From an uncultured Brachyspira sp. (lineage in GTDB: Bacteria; Spirochaetota; Brachyspiria; Brachyspirales; Brachyspiraceae): a DNA stretch of 37,925 bases. The stretch is from contig NZ_CALXRM010000028.1 of the NCBI RefSeq assembly GCF_944390845.1, positions 1-37,925 on the forward strand. The letters run 5' to 3'. The stretch's first letter is position 1, and every line of letters begins with the position of its first letter. The position numbers and the translations under genes are program-made. This document shows positions 11,704-20,856 of this stretch, piece after piece. The notes under the pieces were generated by a model. The model worked only from the letters and a program-made list of their open reading frames with translations. It searched no databases and was not told where the DNA came from.

Positions 11704-12312
11704 TCAAAATATATAGTATCTCACTCCCATACTCCTTCTTCCAAAACCTACCATATCAAGTTTTTTTGGATATCCTAAATCCTTTCCGCTAAATATGTCA
11801 TGAAGTCCTCCTCCAAATTCTAATACTATTGCAACATGTTTGCTTACATTAATATTAAAACCAGCACCGCCTCCAACTTCCCAATAAAGCGGTTTGCTAA
11901 ATAAAAATTTTCCGCTTTTATCAGGATCAAATGATAAGAATCCAAAACTTACAAATGCAAAAGCATATCTTCCTATACTAATATCACCTGTATATACGTC
12001 TTTTCCTCCAAATGTTATTTTTTGCATAAATCCTAATTGGTATAAATCAGGATTATCATCATATATTTTTGAACCAATTACAGAAGTGTAGCTTTTCATT
12101 TCAAAATTATTATACTTAAATAATTTGAAGCCCAATTCTATATTGACACTTGTTTTTATTGTATCAGCACTGCTGTAAATTCCTATTGAAAAAAATCTAT
12201 TATCCAAACCTGATACAAGTCTGTTTTTTTTATCATCTTCCTCGCTATAAGCAATATCAAAAAAACTTAAAGAAATTATATTGATTATAACGATGCACTT
12301 AATTATATTCAT
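11704..12312 (-). CDS. small outer-membrane-type protein, paralogue of 17135-17761
   Basis: The 202-residue protein has a signal peptide (hydrophobic residues 4-20) followed by a strand-rich body with many Gly and aromatic residues, ending YYIF. Distinctive segments are DNRFFSIGIYSSADTIKTSV, IGSKIYDDNP, and the near C-terminal GGGAGFNINVSKHVAIVLEF, then GGG. It closely resembles the 208-residue product at 17135-17761 over its whole length, including the position of the gene just after a DUF454 gene. No named family was recognised. A small barrel or periplasmic envelope protein is likely. A GGGGA ribosome-binding site precedes the start; the gap to the DUF454 gene is 23 bp. Confidence 0.6.
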   Translation of the reverse strand: MNIIKCIVIINIISLSFFDIAYSEEDDKKNRLVSGLDNRFFSIGIYSSADTIKTSVNIELGFKLFKYNNFEMKSYTSVIGSKIYDDNPDLYQLGFMQKITFGGKDVYTGDISIGRYAFAFVSFGFLSFDPDKSGKFLFSKPLYWEVGGGAGFNINVSKHVAIVLEFGGGLHDIFSGKDLGYPKKLDMVGFGRRSMGVRYYIF

Positions 12313-12335
12313 AAATATCCCCGTTATTTTTATAT

Positions 12336-12734
12336 CTATTCATCTAATTCTATATTTGTTTTTATATTATCATATTCTTTTATTGTTTTTATACATATAA
12401 AGAAATATAAGTATTTAGCTATAAGAAGCACTACTAATGCTATTCTCGCATGCAAATTATTTACAAATATGAATGCTATTATAAGCATAATGCTTACAGG
12501 TATTAGTATGCTTAATTTAGATTTTAATGTCATAGATTTAGATTGAACAAAACTTTCTAAATGTTTTTTGTATAGTTTTGTAGACATAAACCAGTTATGG
12601 AATTTCTCTGAGCCTTTAGCAAAGAAAAAAGCTGCTACCAAAAGAAATGGGGCAGTAGGCAATATAGGAATTACCACTCCAACTATACCTATTGCCATAA
12701 AAATAAATGCTAAACATAAAAATATTATTCTCAT
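12336..12734 (-). CDS. DUF454 (YbaN-like) inner-membrane protein
   Basis: The 132-residue protein shows the DUF454 pattern: a first membrane helix ending VGVVIPILPTAPFLLVAAFF, then FAKGSEKFHNWF and LYKKHLESF, followed by two further membrane helices. The family is widespread, small and of unknown biochemical role. The gene is first in a five-gene operon with a small outer-membrane protein, TetR and the exporter pair. An AGGG motif lies before the ATG. A paralogue at 17815-18246 is about as long and has the same neighbour downstream. Confidence 0.8.
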   Translation of the reverse strand: MRIIFLCLAFIFMAIGIVGVVIPILPTAPFLLVAAFFFAKGSEKFHNWFMSTKLYKKHLESFVQSKSMTLKSKLSILIPVSIMLIIAFIFVNNLHARIALVVLLIAKYLYFFICIKTIKEYDNIKTNIELDE

Positions 12735-12756
12735 AAAAATTACCCTAATATCAAAG

Positions 12757-12796
12757 TGAACAATGTTCAGTATAAACTATTAATATATTTTGTCAA
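12757..12796 (-). promoter_or_regulatory. promoter and candidate TetR operator for the DUF454-OMP-TetR-ABC operon
   Basis: On the minus strand, TTGACA (12796-12791), a 16-nt spacer and TATACT (12774-12769) form a near-consensus promoter. The palindrome TGAACATTGTTCA (12769-12757) begins at the last base of the -10 box, a position where a bound repressor would block transcription. The same 13 bp occur at 13532-13544. Confidence 0.65.
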
Positions 12797-12812
12797 CATA
12801 TAAAAAATTATT

Positions 12813-13481
12813 TTACAAAGTTTTTTGTTCGGTATTATTTCTTTCTATAGCTTCTTTTAATAATTCTCCATTTGGATATATATTTTTGCTCATCTCTATA
12901 TATTTATTGTAGTTATCTTTATCTTTTACTTTAAAATAGTATTGAGATAACCAAACATAAGATAAATATTTTTGATATTTTTCATTAGCATTGTTTAAAG
13001 CTTTGTTAAAATATTCAAAGGCTTTTTTATTACTTCCGCCTGCTATAGCTGGTGCATGCATATATGCTATTGCTGTGCCTATAAGAGCAAAAAAGTTTGA
13101 TTCATCTTTCTTTAATATTTTTTGATATATTTCTTTGCTTTTTGAACCATAAGAAATTTTTTCTGAAAGTCCTGTGAAATAAACAATATAATTCATTAAT
13201 TCTGATACGCTTATTAGATAATCTGTATAATCTGATTTTTCATAACCTGCATTTTCATTTATAATATTTTTTAAATAATTATATTTTTCTTTTTTATCTG
13301 AAATCTTTTTTGATTCTATTAAATGATATATATTTTTATATGTTTGTGAAGAATTATTTTTTATGGTGTTTATATCATAATTTGAAGAATAATAGCTATT
13401 ATAAAAATTATTAATATCTTTAGAATCATATGAATATAAAATTCCATTTAATATAATTGACAGAATGATAATGTATTTCAT
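12813..13481 (-). CDS. secreted TPR-like protein, paralogue of 20188-20856
   Basis: The 222-residue protein has a signal peptide (MKYIIILSIILNGILYSYDS) and a helical body. The body has TPR-like helix pairs, for example NFFALIGTAIAYMHAPAIAG, then GGSNKKAFEYFNKAL, and YLSYVWLSQYYFKVKDKDNY. The central HAPAIAGG loop is strongly conserved with the paralogue at 20188-20856; by eye about three quarters of positions agree. Such modules usually mediate protein contacts in the periplasm. The gene sits upstream of the DUF454 operon on the same strand. It has its own palindrome at 13532-13544, suggesting shared control by the TetR protein. A CGGAG site precedes the start. Confidence 0.6.
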   Translation of the reverse strand: MKYIIILSIILNGILYSYDSKDINNFYNSYYSSNYDINTIKNNSSQTYKNIYHLIESKKISDKKEKYNYLKNIINENAGYEKSDYTDYLISVSELMNYIVYFTGLSEKISYGSKSKEIYQKILKKDESNFFALIGTAIAYMHAPAIAGGSNKKAFEYFNKALNNANEKYQKYLSYVWLSQYYFKVKDKDNYNKYIEMSKNIYPNGELLKEAIERNNTEQKTL

Positions 13482-13956: not shown

Positions 13957-15021
13957 TTAATTTCTCATATATCTTGAATGTATTTCACTTATAGAATCTA
14001 TTCTCTGCATAGCCAATTTGTCTGCAGCTTCATTTGTTGATATATTATGTTCATCAGAAATTTCAAATATTTCTAATATTCTGTTATATATTTTTTCTGT
14101 AGCACTTTTAGCAGCTTCATAATTATAAGTAGGGTTTTCCATAGCCACATTAATAACACCTCCGGCATTAGCAACATAATCCGGAGCATATACAATACCT
14201 TTGTCTTTTAAGATTTTTCCATGATGAGATTCTTTAAGAACATTATTAGCTGAACCTGCTACAACTTTACATTTTAATTTAGGTATAGTGTCATCATTAA
14301 TAATAGCACCTAATCCGCAAGGAGCAAATATATCAACATCTTGTTCATATATAGCATTAACATCAACTTCTTTAGCATTGTATAATTCTACAACTTTTTT
14401 TACTTTTTCTTTATCTATGTCTGATACTATTAATTCTGCTTTATCTTTTGCCAAATAATCGCATAATACCAAACCTACATGACCTAAGCCCTGAACTGAT
14501 ATTTTTTTACCTGATAAATTATCGCTTCCAAAAGCTTTTAAAGCACTTGCTTTGATAGCCATATAAACACCGTAAGCAGTCATAGGAGAAGGGTCACCTG
14601 ATTTGCTTCTAAGTCCTGCTACAAAGCTTGTTTCTTTAGCTATATATTCCATTTCTTCTGTACTTGTATTAACATCTTCAGCAGTGATGTATCTTCCGTT
14701 TAATGAATTAATGAATCTTCCGTAAGATCTCCAGAATATTTCATTACCTTTAACTTTTTTAGGATCAGCTATTATTACTGTTTTACCTCCGCCTAAATCA
14801 AGTCCTGCACATGCAGATTTTAATGACATACCTTTAGCAAGTCTTAAAACATCTTCTATGGCTTCACTTTCTGACTTATAATTCCAAAGTCTTGTTCCGC
14901 CTAAAGATGGTCCTAATTTTGTAGAGTGAATACATGTAATAGCTTTAAGACCTGTTTTGCTGTCATTGAAAAATACTAATTCTTCATAATTATATTTTTC
15001 CATATAACTGAAAATTTCCAT
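13957..15021 (-). CDS. leucine (branched-chain amino acid) dehydrogenase
   Basis: The 354-residue enzyme would oxidatively deaminate leucine, valine or isoleucine with NAD+ to the 2-oxo acids. It has the Glu/Leu/Phe/Val dehydrogenase fold. Visible marks are the substrate motif GPSLGGTRLW (38-47), LGGGKTVI with the catalytic lysine at residue 80 exactly where leucine dehydrogenases have it, and the Rossmann motif GLGHVG near 176. YVANAGGVINVAMEN lies near 279-293. Length matches the family (about 350-365). A GGAGG site precedes the start. It is a single-gene unit with its own promoter at 15065-15092 and terminator at 13893. Phenylalanine or valine dehydrogenase activity cannot be excluded. Confidence 0.85.
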   Translation of the reverse strand: MEIFSYMEKYNYEELVFFNDSKTGLKAITCIHSTKLGPSLGGTRLWNYKSESEAIEDVLRLAKGMSLKSACAGLDLGGGKTVIIADPKKVKGNEIFWRSYGRFINSLNGRYITAEDVNTSTEEMEYIAKETSFVAGLRSKSGDPSPMTAYGVYMAIKASALKAFGSDNLSGKKISVQGLGHVGLVLCDYLAKDKAELIVSDIDKEKVKKVVELYNAKEVDVNAIYEQDVDIFAPCGLGAIINDDTIPKLKCKVVAGSANNVLKESHHGKILKDKGIVYAPDYVANAGGVINVAMENPTYNYEAAKSATEKIYNRILEIFEISDEHNISTNEAADKLAMQRIDSISEIHSRYMRN

Positions 15022-15424: not shown

Positions 15425-15583
15425 GTTTTTATTATTTAGCTTTATCCAAATATTTATTTATTATTATTGCTAATAAAAATTGTTCGCTAATAAAATCTAG
15501 CAAATGACTCTGTCCGCCTTCGGCGAATTTGCTAGATGCTCACAATTTTTATTATTTAGCTTTATCTAAATATTTATTTTCTG
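15425..15583. repeat. nested hairpin element flanked by a direct repeat of the gene's 3' end
   Basis: A stretch of about 34 bp covering the last codons and stop of the deaminase gene (KYLDKAK-stop; around 15547-15581) is repeated at about 15425-15459 with one central change. Between the copies lies a large palindrome: outer 12-bp arms AATAAAAATTGT (15472-15483) and ACAATTTTTATT (15542-15553), inner 10-bp arms TCTAGCAAAT (15496-15505) and ATTTGCTAGA (15527-15536), and a G+C-rich tip at 15515-15525. The layout resembles insertion of a small palindromic element with duplication of the target. Confidence 0.6.
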
Positions 15584-16913
15584 TATCATTTGCAAGTCTG
15601 TACATCTTTTCTTCATCTATAGTTATTAGTTTTCCTTTTTCTACTACTACTTTTCCATTAACTATAGTGTAATCAACAGATCCTTTCCAGCCTATAGTAC
15701 CGAATAATGATTTAGGATCGAAATTAGCACCAACCATTTCTAATTTTCTCATATCTATCATAAATAAGTCGGCAGCTTTTCCAACTTCCAAGCTTCCTAT
15801 ATCATCACGGCCTAAAACTCTAGCTCCGCCGTTAGTTGCTATTTTTAGTATATCGTATCCAGTAGGGGCTTTATTACTTGAATTGAGTCTATGGAGCAAA
15901 TAACAAACTCTCATTTCTTCAAGTAGGCTAGATCCGTCATTACTTGCACTTCCGTCAACAGCAAGTCCAACAGGAACATTCAATTCAAGCATTTCAGGTA
16001 TTCTGCATATACCGGAACTTAATTTCATGTTAGATATAGGACAATGAGCTACACCAGTTTGAGTATCAGCTAGGAATTTTAATTCTTTTTCATTAAAGTG
16101 TATACCATGAGCATACCAAACATCATTACCAACCCAGCCTAAAGATTCCATGTATTCCAAAGGACGCATATTGAATTTTTCTTTAACGAATACTTCTTCA
16201 TCTTTAGTTTCGCATAAATGAGTATGAAGTCTTACTTTTAAATCCCTAGCCAATACTGCAGATTGTTTGAGTAATTCACCAGTTACATTGAAAGGAGCAC
16301 AAGGAGCCAATGCAACCATATTCATAGAGTAGCGGGAAGGATCATGATACTTTTCTACTACTCTTTGACAATCTTTTAAAATATCATCTAATGACTGAAC
16401 AACAGAATCAGGAGGAAGTCCGCCGTCTTTTTTACTTAAATCCATACTTCCTCTTGAAGCATACATTCTTATTCCTAAATCTTTAGCAGCTGCAAATTGT
16501 GAATCCAACAACATTTCTGAATTTTTTTGAGGGAATAAATAATGATGATCAAAACAAGTAGTACAGCCGGTTTTTAATAATTCACCCATTGCAGTGATAG
16601 AACTATAATAAACAACGTCATTATTTATATTTTTCCAGATTTCATATAAAGTTGTAAGCCATTCAAATAATTCCATGTTTTGTACTTGAGGCAAATTTCT
16701 GCTGAATATTTGATACAAATGATGATGTGTATTGATAAGTCCTGGATACATAAAGCAGCCGGAAGCATCAATAACTTTATCAGCTTTTTTTTCTTCTTTT
16801 CCTATGTAAGTAATAACTCCATTTTCTATTAATAGATTGCTGGAATTATGAACTGTATCATTGTTGTCGCATGTAATTATAGAAGAAACGTTTTTGATAA
16901 AAATACTTGACAT
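15552..16913 (-). CDS. amidohydrolase, probable 8-oxoguanine deaminase
   Basis: The 453-residue enzyme belongs to the metal-dependent amidohydrolases of the AtzB/TrzN/guanine-deaminase branch. Metal ligands are seen in NTHHHLYQ (61-68) and HTHLCE, then AHCPISNMKLSSG and the catalytic Asp in VDGSASND. The stretches MELFEWLTTLYEIW and GCTTCFDHHYLFP closely recall the 8-oxoguanine deaminase group, which turns 8-oxoguanine into urate. The start at 16913 is chosen because GGAGG (16923-16927) lies 9 nt upstream. The longer frame from 16991 would run through the riboswitch and adds no family sequence. A purine riboswitch in the leader agrees with a purine substrate. Guanine or another aminopurine is the main alternative. 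Confidence 0.75.
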   Translation of the reverse strand: MSSIFIKNVSSIITCDNNDTVHNSSNLLIENGVITYIGKEEKKADKVIDASGCFMYPGLINTHHHLYQIFSRNLPQVQNMELFEWLTTLYEIWKNINNDVVYYSSITAMGELLKTGCTTCFDHHYLFPQKNSEMLLDSQFAAAKDLGIRMYASRGSMDLSKKDGGLPPDSVVQSLDDILKDCQRVVEKYHDPSRYSMNMVALAPCAPFNVTGELLKQSAVLARDLKVRLHTHLCETKDEEVFVKEKFNMRPLEYMESLGWVGNDVWYAHGIHFNEKELKFLADTQTGVAHCPISNMKLSSGICRIPEMLELNVPVGLAVDGSASNDGSSLLEEMRVCYLLHRLNSSNKAPTGYDILKIATNGGARVLGRDDIGSLEVGKAADLFMIDMRKLEMVGANFDPKSLFGTIGWKGSVDYTIVNGKVVVEKGKLITIDEEKMYRLANDTENKYLDKAK

Positions 16914-16948
16914 ATTTTTATTCCTCCATTTTTTATGATGATATAAAA

Positions 16949-17014
16949 ACTTATAGTCAATTATTTTTTGGTAATTGGTAGAAACGTTCAACCGTATTAT
17001 GAACTTATATAAGT
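16949..17014 (-). ncRNA. Purine riboswitch aptamer (guanine type, C at position 74)
   Basis: Read on the minus strand from 17014 to 16949, the 66 nt fold as a purine aptamer. P1 is ACTTATA/TATAAGT, J1/2 is TAA and P2 is GTTCA/TGAAC. Loop 2 is AATACGG, J2/3 is GTTTCTACC (16985-16977) and P3 is AATTA/TAATT. Loop 3 starts CCAAAA, and J3/1 is GACTAT. Loop 2 GG and loop 3 CC can make the kissing contact. The specificity base is C (16956), as in guanine rather than adenine switches. Differences from the usual sequence are C for U in loop 2 and a loop 3 one base longer. It begins about 7 nt after the predicted transcription start and ends 22 nt before the GGAGG of the deaminase gene. Confidence 0.85.
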
Positions 17015-17027
17015 GTATGATATTTGA

Positions 17028-17055
17028 ATTATAAGAGATTTTAATTTTATGTCAA
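17028..17055 (-). promoter_or_regulatory. consensus promoter of the riboswitch-deaminase transcript
   Basis: On the minus strand TTGACA (17055-17050), a 16-nt spacer and TATAAT (17033-17028) match the sigma-70 consensus exactly. The start near 17021 leaves a leader of about 108 nt that is almost filled by the aptamer. Confidence 0.8.
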
Positions 17056-17134: not shown

Positions 17135-17761
17135 TTAGAAATAATATCTTCCGCCTATACTCATTCTTCCAAATCCTGCCTTATTAATTTTTTCAGGATA
17201 TCCAAGTTCTTTTCCATTATGTACCATATGAATTCCTCCGCCAAATTCCAATACTATTGATACATGCTTGCTTACATTTATATTGAAACCAGCACCGCCG
17301 CCTATTTCCCAATAAAATGGAGGTGAAAATAAAAATTTCCCGCTTTTATCTGCATCAAATGATAATACTCCAAAACTTCCAAAAGCAAAACCGTATCTTG
17401 CAATGCTTATTTTTCCAGTATATTCATCATTGCCTCCGAATGTAAATTTTTGCATGATTCCTAATTGATACATTCTAGGGCTGTCATCATATATTTTTGA
17501 ACCAGTGATTGCTGTATAGCTTTTTATTTGAAAATTATTATATTTCATTATTTTAAATCCAAATTCTATATTAACAGTTGTCTTTATAGAATCTGCACTG
17601 CTGAATAAACCTATAGAAAAAAATCTATTATCTAATACTGATTGAAATCCTTTCTTTTCATTAATATTTTCATTAGTTTCAGTATTTTCATTAGAATAGG
17701 CAAAACTAAATAAAGATAAAAATACAATTATCCCTATAAAAATATATTTAAATATTTTCAT
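17135..17761 (-). CDS. small outer-membrane-type protein, paralogue of 11704-12312
   Basis: The 208-residue protein has a signal peptide (hydrophobic to about residue 23, FSFAYS), then an Asn/Glu-rich linker and a Gly/aromatic strand-rich body ending RYYF. Segments LDNRFFSIGLFSSADSIKTT, TGSKIYDDSP and GGGAGFNINVSKHVSIVLEF match the protein at 11704-12312 almost throughout; the linker after the signal is the main difference. The ribosome-binding site is AGGAG. It lies 53 bp after the DUF454 gene at 17815 and probably ends that transcription unit. The conserved pairing of the two genes in both copies suggests that they act together in the envelope. Confidence 0.6.
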   Translation of the reverse strand: MKIFKYIFIGIIVFLSLFSFAYSNENTETNENINEKKGFQSVLDNRFFSIGLFSSADSIKTTVNIEFGFKIMKYNNFQIKSYTAITGSKIYDDSPRMYQLGIMQKFTFGGNDEYTGKISIARYGFAFGSFGVLSFDADKSGKFLFSPPFYWEIGGGAGFNINVSKHVSIVLEFGGGIHMVHNGKELGYPEKINKAGFGRMSIGGRYYF

Positions 17762-17814
17762 TATTATCTCCTAAAAATATAACTAAAGAGCGTTATTTAT
17801 TATTTTTTATATTA

Positions 17815-18246
17815 TTATAATTTTTGTTTATTATTTAGGTTCATTTCATTATTTTCTTCTAATACAGCATTGTTTATATATTCTTCATTCTTTATAGTTT
17901 TTATTTGTGTGAAGAAGTATAAATATTTTGCAATGAATAATATTACAAGAACTATTCTGGCATGCAGATTATTTACAAATATGAATGTAATTATAAGCAT
18001 GGCACTTACTGGTAAAAGTATGCTTAATTTTGATTTTAAAGTCATAGCCTTTGATTTCACAAAACTTTCTAAATGTTTTTTGTATAATTTTGTGCTTATA
18101 AACCAATCATGAAATCTTTTAGATCCTTTTGCAAAAAAGAAGGAAGCTAATAATAGAAATGGGGTAGTAGGAAGTATTGGAACTGCTATTCCTACAGCAC
18201 CTATTGCTACAAATATAAAACCTAAAATTATAAATAATATTCTCAT
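17815..18246 (-). CDS. DUF454 (YbaN-like) inner-membrane protein
   Basis: The 143-residue protein has the DUF454 signature in its first half (VGIAVPILPTTPFLLLASFF, FAKGSKRFHDWF, LYKKHLESF) and two further membrane helices. It resembles the product of 12336-12734 over nearly its full length, with a longer polar C-terminal tail (EENNEMNLNNKQKL). Its ATG overlaps the stop of the preceding Cys-rich gene as ATGA (18243-18246), so the two are translationally coupled. Function of the family is unknown. Confidence 0.8.
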   Translation of the reverse strand: MRILFIILGFIFVAIGAVGIAVPILPTTPFLLLASFFFAKGSKRFHDWFISTKLYKKHLESFVKSKAMTLKSKLSILLPVSAMLIITFIFVNNLHARIVLVILFIAKYLYFFTQIKTIKNEEYINNAVLEENNEMNLNNKQKL

Positions 18247-18677
18247 ATCGCTCCTTTAAAATCTAATTTTTTATTTTTATTAAAATTATGTTTTATCATT
18301 ACAAATATATGTTTTAATGCTGTTATTGGGCGGTAAAATAACATTCTTTTTCCAGAGAAGGACATTATTTTTTTTATTTTTTCTTTCATATCTTTTTTAT
18401 AACAATGAGAAGTACAAGCACTGCAAAATGTTTTAGTTTCCATAAATCTGCATCTGTCAGTTCTTTCACATGCATAATGATATATTTCTTCGCATTCTCT
18501 GCAAATATTTTTGCTTCCAAATGTTTTGTTATAGTTTTTATGATATTCTTTATGATTATGTTTGCAGTAAATTTCTATCATACATAAAATAGATTCTTTT
18601 TCCTTTTCTCTTTTTTTATTTATTTTATATTCTTTGTTATTGCAAAATATTGTTATATTATTTTGTATTACATTCAT
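18243..18677 (-). CDS. Cys-rich protein of the nitrous oxide-stimulated promoter family
   Basis: The 144-residue protein contains the pattern CMIEIYCKHNH, NICRECEEIYHYACERTDRC, TFCSACTSHCY, then MSFSGKRMLFYRPITALKH. I recognise this as the family labelled nitrous oxide-stimulated promoter, a small Cys/His-rich protein of unknown role. The four pairs of cysteines look suited to metal binding. The family's conserved part begins near residue 31, so the first 30 residues are an extension. The start at 18677 is supported by AAAAAGG 7 nt upstream. It overlaps the DUF454 gene by 4 nt. No NO- or N2O-metabolism gene is visible nearby, so the family name should not be read as a function. Confidence 0.65.
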   Translation of the reverse strand: MNVIQNNITIFCNNKEYKINKKREKEKESILCMIEIYCKHNHKEYHKNYNKTFGSKNICRECEEIYHYACERTDRCRFMETKTFCSACTSHCYKKDMKEKIKKIMSFSGKRMLFYRPITALKHIFVMIKHNFNKNKKLDFKGAI

Positions 18678-18764
18678 TTTTTTACCTTTTTAATTTATAT
18701 TGGGCATCTTGTATTTTAAGACACCCAATAAATATATTTCCCAATATCAATAATTTAGCTAATT

Positions 18765-20081
18765 TTAAAATTTCCAAGTAATACCAGTACTTCCATTAAA
18801 TGCTAAACTGCTGTTGGCACTATTACCTATACCATCAACGGTTGTAGCACCTCCAATTTGAGCTTCAAAATACCATTCCAAATTAGGTTTAGGAGTTATA
18901 TATAATTCTCCATATACCAAATATCCAAGAGAGTAAAACATTGGAGGTATTCTTACAGGCTTTGAACTGCTGGCATAAGCATTAATTCCGCCGGTTATCA
19001 TGGAGAATGATACAGCAGGTTCTAAGTATAAAGTTATAAATTCACTTTCAGCTGTAAAACCTACAGGAACAGATATACCTATAAATTGAGGCTTTGTGAA
19101 ATAATATTCTGTTCCTCCTATTTCTATTGAAGCTCCTTCACCTGTAAACATTATATTATGTGCTGTAAAATCATAATATGGTGCTGATGCTATTGTTCCA
19201 GAATTTCCTAATTCAAAAGCACCTATAGGATTTGAAGCATCTATATTATATAATCCGAATTTTGCTCCTCCTTCTTTTGGATCCATACCAGGAGGAGTTA
19301 CTCTATAGGAAGTACCTTCAAAATCTGATATAGAGCCTTGATAAACAATTCTTATTTGAGGTTCTATTAATATAGGATCTGTTGCAGCTATGAAATATCC
19401 TCTCACATCTACACCTATAGATTGACCTATTGTATCTTTAATAAAACCATATTTTCCATTTTCTCCAACTGTTCCTAAATTCATAGGACCCATACTTAGA
19501 TTTCCGCCATTGGCTAAATCTCCGCTTCTGCTTTCATTAGCTTTTAATTTATACATACCATATTTAAGATTTACTCTTATTCTGCTGAAAATATTATTTC
19601 CAGTATAATATTCAATTCTAGTATCTGTTGAAACTGCTATATCTCCGTCATTAACATTTCCGCTTCCTACTCCTATTGTAACAGGGACATTGATTCTCAA
19701 ATTATCATTCAAAGCTGTTGCTGTTATTATAGGTGTATGTGCCTGCCAGCTTCCGCTTACATATTTGAATTGATAACCTAAACCTATACCAAAACTGTCT
19801 GTTTTATATCCGAATCCGGCTATAGCAGCAGGTCTGAAAGTACTTATTCCTCCTTCAGTACCGCTGTCTAAGTTATCAAGCAATACTCCTGCAGTTTCAC
19901 CTGATACTCCAACCATAAATCTTAAATTCTCAGTTCCTGCCAATACTCCTAATCTATCAAGCCTTATTCTTAATTGATTTTCATCAACTAAAAAGTCATT
20001 AAAATCTTCTACAACAGTATAAGCAAATACATTGTACATGCTTATTATTAAAGCTGCTAAAATGAAATATAAACGTTTCAT
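18765..20081 (-). CDS. Outer-membrane beta-barrel resembling Brachyspira Vsp surface proteins
   Basis: The 438-residue protein has a signal peptide (to about residue 20, YNVFA) and a Gly/Thr/Ser-rich body of alternating strands, ending in Phe (GITWKF) like many outer-membrane proteins. The early segment ENQLRIRLDRLGVLAGTENL, then FGIGLGYQFKYVSGSWQAHT and TDTRIEYYTGNN recall from memory the Brachyspira variable surface protein (Vsp) family. This is suggestive and not verified. The ribosome-binding site AAGGA is 8 nt from the start. A weak hairpin with ATTGGG/CCCAAT arms follows at about 18697-18728. The gene lies between the TPR-like and Cys-rich genes on the same strand. Confidence 0.6.
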   Translation of the reverse strand: MKRLYFILAALIISMYNVFAYTVVEDFNDFLVDENQLRIRLDRLGVLAGTENLRFMVGVSGETAGVLLDNLDSGTEGGISTFRPAAIAGFGYKTDSFGIGLGYQFKYVSGSWQAHTPIITATALNDNLRINVPVTIGVGSGNVNDGDIAVSTDTRIEYYTGNNIFSRIRVNLKYGMYKLKANESRSGDLANGGNLSMGPMNLGTVGENGKYGFIKDTIGQSIGVDVRGYFIAATDPILIEPQIRIVYQGSISDFEGTSYRVTPPGMDPKEGGAKFGLYNIDASNPIGAFELGNSGTIASAPYYDFTAHNIMFTGEGASIEIGGTEYYFTKPQFIGISVPVGFTAESEFITLYLEPAVSFSMITGGINAYASSSKPVRIPPMFYSLGYLVYGELYITPKPNLEWYFEAQIGGATTVDGIGNSANSSLAFNGSTGITWKF

Positions 20082-20187
20082 ATTATTATCCTTATTTTTG
20101 TTTATAATTTTTTTAACAACTTTGTATTTTTTATTAATACTATATTATTATGAAACCCACACTATTAAATCTGTTTTATTTTTGAAG

Positions 20188-20856
20188 TTATAATGGCTTA
20201 TTTTTAGTGTTATTTATCTCTATAGCCTCCTTTAATAATTGTCCGTCTGAATATATGCTTTTACTCATTTCAATGTATTTATTATAATTTTCTTTATCTT
20301 TTACTTTGAAATAGTATTGAGACAGCCAAATATAAGATAAATATTTTTGATACTTTTCTTTTGCATTAATTAACGCTTTATTAAAATATTCAAAAGCTTT
20401 TTTATTGCTTCCCCCTCCTATGGCTGGAGCATGCATATAGCCTATAGCAGTACCAAGAAGTGCAAAAAAGTTTGAGTCATCTGTTTCTAAAATCTTTCTA
20501 TATATTTCTTTACTTTTTGTTCCAAATGAAATTTTTTCAGAAAGTCCAGAATAATAAACTATATAGCCCATCAATTCAGATACGCTTATTAGATAATCAA
20601 TATCATTAGATTCTATATAATTTTCATTGTTATTTATTGCTTCTTTTAGATAATTGTATTTTTCTTTTTCGTTTTGTATATTTTTTGATTTTATTAGATG
20701 ATATATATTTTTATATGTTTTTGAATTATTGTTTTCAATATCTTTTATATTATAATTTGAAGAATAGTAATTATTATAAAAGTTATTTATTTCTTTTGAA
20801 TTGTATGAATATAAAAAATTTGTAATTATAATTGAGAAGATGATTATATATTTCAT
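20188..20856 (-). CDS. secreted TPR-like protein, paralogue of 12813-13481
   Basis: The 222-residue protein has the same length as its paralogue at 12813-13481 and agrees with it at roughly three quarters of positions by eye. It has a signal peptide (MKYIIIFSIIITNFLYSYNS) and TPR-like helices, including SNFFALLGTAIGYMHAPAIG, GGSNKKAFEYFNKA and YLSYIWLSQYYFKVKDKENY. It sits at the upstream edge of the second copy of the envelope gene set. Its promoter region lacks the TGAACA palindrome but has a different inverted repeat at 20900-20917, so the two copies probably differ in regulation. Confidence 0.6.
   Translation of the reverse strand: MKYIIIFSIIITNFLYSYNSKEINNFYNNYYSSNYNIKDIENNNSKTYKNIYHLIKSKNIQNEKEKYNYLKEAINNNENYIESNDIDYLISVSELMGYIVYYSGLSEKISFGTKSKEIYRKILETDDSNFFALLGTAIGYMHAPAIGGGSNKKAFEYFNKALINAKEKYQKYLSYIWLSQYYFKVKDKENYNKYIEMSKSIYSDGQLLKEAIEINNTKNKPL

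Follow-up and report, generated by a model that had tools for sequence, protein, structure and literature searches.

The pbuE adenine riboswitch of B. subtilis is an ON switch whose terminator overlaps the aptamer. 8-Oxoguanine riboswitches, a Paenibacillaceae variant of the guanine class, reportedly precede the gene family that concerns us here and act in the ON direction, as Hamal Dhakal et al. are said to have described in 2023. Most guanine-class riboswitches described to date switch OFF, as do all four of C. difficile (PMC11477304). Guanine is contacted by U22, U51 and C74, and the same scaffold has given rise to variants: xanthine-II and guanine-II riboswitches, which are predicted to be ON switches and are tied to purine degradation or salvage, carry insertions in J2/3, and xanthine-II carries U51G and an insertion in J3/1 as well; the existence of an 8-oxoguanine class has also been reported (PMC9295807). 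In the latter, key ligand-recognition bases are mutated (PMC11625349).

Here we describe a purine aptamer in a 37,925-nt stretch of DNA from an uncultured Brachyspira sp., a gut spirochaete (the window, by which we mean the whole stretch that was analysed). It belongs to a known riboswitch class, with an atypical gene context and an atypical predicted direction. We consider it probable that a guanine-class riboswitch turns on a deaminase that feeds purine catabolism, a reading for which the analysis shows the aptamer, the identity of its pocket, the gene family, the linkage across the genus and the catabolic setting, and for which we infer the ligand, the ON direction and the substrate. If this is right, a guanine riboswitch would act as an ON switch at the entry step of anaerobic purine degradation, both in Brachyspira, to which swine pathogens also belong, and in certain Lachnospiraceae, and its direction would be opposite to that of the textbook guanine switch.

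The aptamer and its ligand pocket

The Rfam Purine model (RF00167) matches the minus strand of the window at 17032-16934 over its full length (54.4 bits, gathering score 37; model positions 1-102 complete; E 9.7e-7 for the whole window). This is the sole RNA-family match in the window and the sole RF00167 match in the 3.43 Mb Brachyspira genome; other Rfam families match the site at chance level only. A sequence-only reading of this DNA had proposed a fully consensus promoter, a complete purine aptamer and an 8-oxoguanine-deaminase-type gene, the whole forming a purine riboswitch that controls the gene, and our analysis supports this arrangement in all its parts. The promoter (17028..17055, minus strand) is of the sigma-70 type, TTGACA-16-TATAAT, agrees with the consensus at 12/12 positions and is expected to start the transcript at ~17021. 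Because shuffled sequence yields 2.6 sites of at least 9/12 per region, we give weight only to the perfect match and to its conservation in relatives: TTGACA and TATAAT lie upstream of the aptamer in 13 of 16 other Brachyspira leaders, and the -10 box is TATACT in the remaining three (G011, G012 and the first leader of G014). The gene (15552..16913, minus strand; ATG at 16913, stop at 15552) encodes an amidohydrolase of 453 aa that belongs to the 8-oxoguanine deaminase family (NCBI model NF006055, 579.8 bits, curated cut-off 532). A listed TTG start at 16991, which overlaps the aptamer, is unlikely to be the start of this gene. Between P1 and the start codon lies the putative expression-platform region (16914..16948, minus strand), for which folds with and without the aptamer constraint give a local hairpin over the Shine-Dalgarno (SD) sequence GGAGG (16923..16927, minus strand).

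In the cmscan alignment the aptamer core (16949..17014, minus strand) consists of P1 (17014-17008/16955-16949), P2 (17004-17000/16990-16986) and P3 (16977-16972/16963-16958), joined by J1/2 (UAA), J2/3 (GUUUCUACC, 16985-16978) and J3/1 (AC). The three helices are real: in a set of 13 aptamers, drawn from Brachyspira and Clostridia, pairing holds in 94.8% of cells and two-sided changes occur at 16 of 18 pairs, a level matched by 0 of 500 shuffles. The pocket bases C74 (the specificity position, 16956), U22 (17007), U47 (16984) and U51 (16980) all match those of common guanine aptamers, and the bases of the kissing-loop contact (span 16970..16993), L2 GG (16993-16992) and L3 CC (16971-16970), are both kept when aligned to the consensus. 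The three-way junction, the four pocket bases, the sequence of J2/3 and the two loop motifs are shared with the guanine-I riboswitch (RF00167; B. subtilis xpt-pbuX type). As the earlier reading had noticed, C74 and J2/3 are retained, loop 2 has C for U and loop 3 is longer, all of which is true in the alignment. In L2 (AAUACGG) the C replaces the usual U at a position outside the pocket; L3 (CCAAAAAA) has 8 nt, one base more than the consensus, and a longer loop 3 occurs in only one other copy, the first of the tandem pair in G014.

Judged by its letters, the aptamer is of the guanine class with a guanine-I pocket; every feature that could be examined is that of the class. Guanine or hypoxanthine would be the simplest prediction for the ligand, given this pocket. 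An adenine riboswitch needs U at position 74, where C is found here (16956). Xanthine-II needs U51G with insertions in J2/3 and J3/1 (PMC9295807); the window aptamer keeps U51 and has no such insertions, nor does it have the J2/3 insertion of guanine-II. It likewise shows none of the pocket changes described for 8-oxoguanine riboswitches, a comparison made with the published description of that class (PMC11625349). The suggestion of an altered ligand such as 8-oxoguanine, raised from the loop differences, does not agree with a pocket that is letter for letter guanine-class and a loop 2 C that lies outside it; these pocket letters do not fit the 8-oxoguanine variant, and on present evidence the element does not appear to be an 8-oxoguanine riboswitch.

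Distribution of the switch

We surveyed 26 Brachyspira genomes, counting a deaminase if it was intact and at least 85% identical. The aptamer is found in 16 of the 17 genomes with the deaminase and in 0 of the 9 without it (Fisher 3e-6), and at the Brachyspira loci read it lies directly upstream of the gene; in G012 the aptamer and the main body of the gene are on different contigs. G017 has a decayed deaminase gene and no aptamer. In G021 (L031, G021:C75) the deaminase stands without an aptamer; here the switch has apparently been lost in nature. G014 has two tandem deaminases, each with its own aptamer. The aptamer of the second copy is canonical; that of the first (L017, G014:C1:1103289-1103386; 43.9 bits) has a shortened and changed J2/3, GCUCUACC instead of GUUUCUACC, and is a candidate for either a ligand variant or a decaying switch. 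The first G014 leader resembles that of the window. In other spirochaetes purine aptamers precede genes that by sequence are purE-, purC- and xpt-like, and a permease gene.

Among the deaminase loci of Bacillota and Actinomycetota that were scanned, the aptamer is present only at L056 (Blautia caecimuris), L079 (G408), L101 (G682) and L059 (an unrelated Clostridia MAG). No further aptamers were found near the ~100 other deaminase loci scanned, a few of which are cut off upstream. We reject a broad association of riboswitch and deaminase in the Bacillota, as no aptamer was found at the scanned loci beyond the Brachyspira/Lachnospiraceae group and L059. In the deaminase tree the Brachyspira proteins form one group with those of L056, L079 and L101 (SH-aLRT 91), which also includes L080, where the upstream DNA is missing. 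The grouping agrees with the gene and its switch having been transferred, or inherited from a common ancestor, as a pair. In G682 one aptamer precedes the deaminase and a second one the adjacent gene for a guanine deaminase (TIGR02967 354.8, slightly below the cut-off of 375.4), after which comes a permease-like gene; in G408 a pbuX-type permease lies 3' of the deaminase; and Blautia caecimuris has extra aptamers before a guanine-deaminase gene and before a permease-like gene.

Two further loci stand apart. In the GC-rich Clostridia MAG a purine aptamer (L059:188-286) precedes a deaminase of the same family that falls outside the aptamer-bearing tree group; gene and switch apparently came together independently here, and no clear ON terminator accompanies this pair. 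In a Clostridium MAG (G028) an adenine-type aptamer with U at the specificity position (L074:1501-1600) precedes an adenosine-deaminase-like gene, and its leader has a strong free-state terminator, probably making it an adenine ON switch for a catabolic deaminase.

Direction of switching

In the three Lachnospiraceae leaders (L056, L079 and L101) the free-state MFE fold forms a long hairpin with a U-run behind it; the 5' arm of this hairpin is made of L3 and the 3' strands of P3 and P1. The MFE values are -38.2, -40.4 and -46.4 kcal/mol in the free state versus -28.6, -24.2 and -23.7 kcal/mol when the aptamer is imposed; imposing it breaks up the long stem at a cost of ~10-23 kcal/mol in secondary structure. 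Since the free-state terminator takes strands of the aptamer, ligand binding should prevent termination, as expected of an ON switch, and this direction is well supported by the folding models for the Lachnospiraceae. The arrangement is like that of pbuE, where the ligand-free terminator or, in our case, masking hairpin takes strands from the aptamer. Unlike pbuE, the present aptamers have C74 and hence belong to the guanine class, and in Brachyspira it is the SD that is masked, with no terminator involved.

Most Brachyspira leaders, which we call type B, have no terminator. Instead L3 (UACCUC) pairs with the SD (GAGGUA) in a masking hairpin that, in the predicted folds, is extended by the 3' strands of P3 and P1, and the predicted free-state pairing between the SD and the P3/L3 strand is 0.71-0.90. 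In G011 and G012, where the SD is GGGGUGA and L3 is UUACCUA, 7 bp can still form in a shifted register (duplex -7.1 kcal/mol). An additional helix, P1b (AGGCA/UGCCU), closes the aptamer in type-B leaders, and its pairing is kept where AGGCA has become AGGCG or GGGCA (read from the alignment). The energy gap of SD masking was rejected as evidence of design, because linker shuffles of type-B leaders give a gap about equal to the observed one. SD-to-aptamer pairing exceeds that of linker shuffles clearly in L009 and L013 (leader-only folds) and modestly in others; when stretches of coding sequence are added, the model often pairs the SD again in the bound state. Taken with these results, the models make the ON direction likely in type-B Brachyspira.

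The window leader and the first leader of G014 are of another kind (type A) and have neither P1b nor the L3-SD pairing. The window L3:SD duplex amounts to only -2.7 kcal/mol. Its SD sits in a local hairpin, with a pairing of 0.74 both with and without the aptamer in leader-only folds; it opens on aptamer folding (0.73 to 0.35) only in folds extended by 30 nt of coding sequence. No terminator was found in the window leader, and P1 followed by U5, considered as a weak terminator, gave no terminator-like site. For this leader ON would be the default by kinship. The sequence-only reading had suggested ligand-dependent release of translation through pairing of J2/3 with the SD. Activation remains the probable direction, but folding does not predict that route: the J2/3-SD duplex is worth -6.1 kcal/mol on paper, yet its summed predicted pairing in the window leader is 0.005-0.07, and in relatives J2/3 is not among the main SD pairing partners in the folds, L3, P3 and P1 being recruited instead.

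Of the other explanations, an OFF switch of the guanine class, in which binding represses the deaminase, fares best, although we regard it as unlikely. It would agree with the mostly OFF behaviour of known guanine-I riboswitches, including the four of C. difficile (PMC11477304), and the predicted SD hairpin in the window leader does form beside the folded aptamer. However, the window leader has no terminator, the aptamer excludes the terminator in the three Lachnospiraceae homologues and the L3-SD pairing in type-B Brachyspira, and it would make little sense to repress a guanine-consuming enzyme when guanine is high. Still less favoured is a relic or degenerating switch in the window genome, whose aptamer would bind guanine after loss of a working platform, much as the first G014 copy begins to lose its aptamer. 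The type-A leaders, with neither P1b nor L3-SD pairing, the shortened and changed J2/3 (GCUCUACC) of the first G014 copy and the G021 gene that was kept when the aptamer was not are all consistent with such decay; the intact pocket and helices of the window aptamer and its perfect promoter argue against it.

We therefore return to the guanine-class ON switch, which would work as follows. Plentiful guanine (or hypoxanthine) would bind the aptamer, and as P1, P3 and the L2-L3 contact form, the strands that mask expression would be withdrawn, so that deaminase is made. In the OFF state those strands would form a transcription terminator in the Lachnospiraceae relatives and, in most Brachyspira, an SD-masking hairpin drawn from L3 (UACCUC with GAGGUA), P3 and P1. 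Compared with guanine-I riboswitches, the Brachyspira copy controls a catabolic deaminase and not salvage, uptake or synthesis, is predicted to be ON rather than OFF, and has leaders without a terminator. If so, the homologues form a natural set: strands of one and the same aptamer would serve a terminator in the one phylum and the ribosome-binding site in the other.

The deaminase and purine catabolism

The GuaD model TIGR02967 scores 158.9 bits against the window deaminase, below its cut-off of 375.4. No GuaD-type guanine deaminase above the cut-off was found in any of the Brachyspira genomes, where the best match is the window type of deaminase itself (158.5 bits). Two enzymes of the family have been characterised and deaminate both guanine, giving xanthine, and 8-oxoguanine, giving urate (PMC6186785). 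Among solved structures, PDB 3hpa and 7ww2 are the closest. Several motif residues differ from these (CPCS is CPIS here, HLAEN is HLCET here), so the sequence does not fix the substrate; we propose that the enzyme is probably a guanine/8-oxoguanine deaminase.

A cluster elsewhere in the same genome (G000:C49:1517-21600; L191, L192) encodes YgfK, SsnA, homologues of XDH including a selenium-dependent one, YqeB, YgeX, YgeY, YgeW, carbamate kinase and xanthine permeases. These genes belong to the anaerobic pathway that degrades urate reductively (PMC12507026). YgfK, the uricolytic marker, is present in 19 of the 26 Brachyspira genomes, namely in every one of the 17 deaminase genomes and also in G013 and G017, and the 7 genomes without YgfK are also without the deaminase. 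The deaminase gene tracks the anaerobic xanthine/urate degradation cluster across the genus. In the proposed scheme the enzyme would supply this cluster with xanthine made from guanine, with urate made from 8-oxoguanine, or with both. The earlier statement that the gene destroys an oxidised purine rests on the family name: tested family members also act on guanine (PMC6186785), and the genome has no other detectable guanine deaminase but does have the xanthine/urate cluster. If our reading is right, the name '8-oxoguanine deaminase' should not be equated with a function in oxidative stress.

These data also bear on the weakest alternative, an 8-oxoguanine sensor in which an aptamer with a guanine-class pocket binds 8-oxoguanine and induces its detoxification, as reported for the 8-oxoguanine riboswitches. 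The downstream gene family, reportedly the same in that class, and the likely ON direction would fit, but the phylum is different and an anaerobic host with a purine-degradation cluster supplies a nutritional rationale; the same aptamer also stands before a guanine-deaminase gene in G682 and Blautia caecimuris, and we find the sensor very improbable. The key recognition bases that are mutated in that class (PMC11625349) are all unchanged here. A plasmid search for a Paenibacillus deaminase gave none among the best matches listed. We would give equally little credence to an unchanged guanine-class pocket that responds in vivo to 8-oxoguanine, or to guanine and 8-oxoguanine, by way of differences outside the pocket; were it true, pocket letters alone would not reveal the ligand class.

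The neighbourhood of the deaminase gene shows two further features. An amino acid dehydrogenase of the Glu/Leu/Phe/Trp type (13957-15021, minus strand) adjoins it, as in G012; its score with the tryptophan dehydrogenase ScyB model is 400.7, below the cut-off of 600. Flanking the dehydrogenase-deaminase pair, three similar genes occur twice in the same order (11704-13481 and 17135-20856, minus strand), encoding an outer-membrane-like protein, a small DUF454-like membrane protein and a TPR-like protein, which looks like a segmental duplication.
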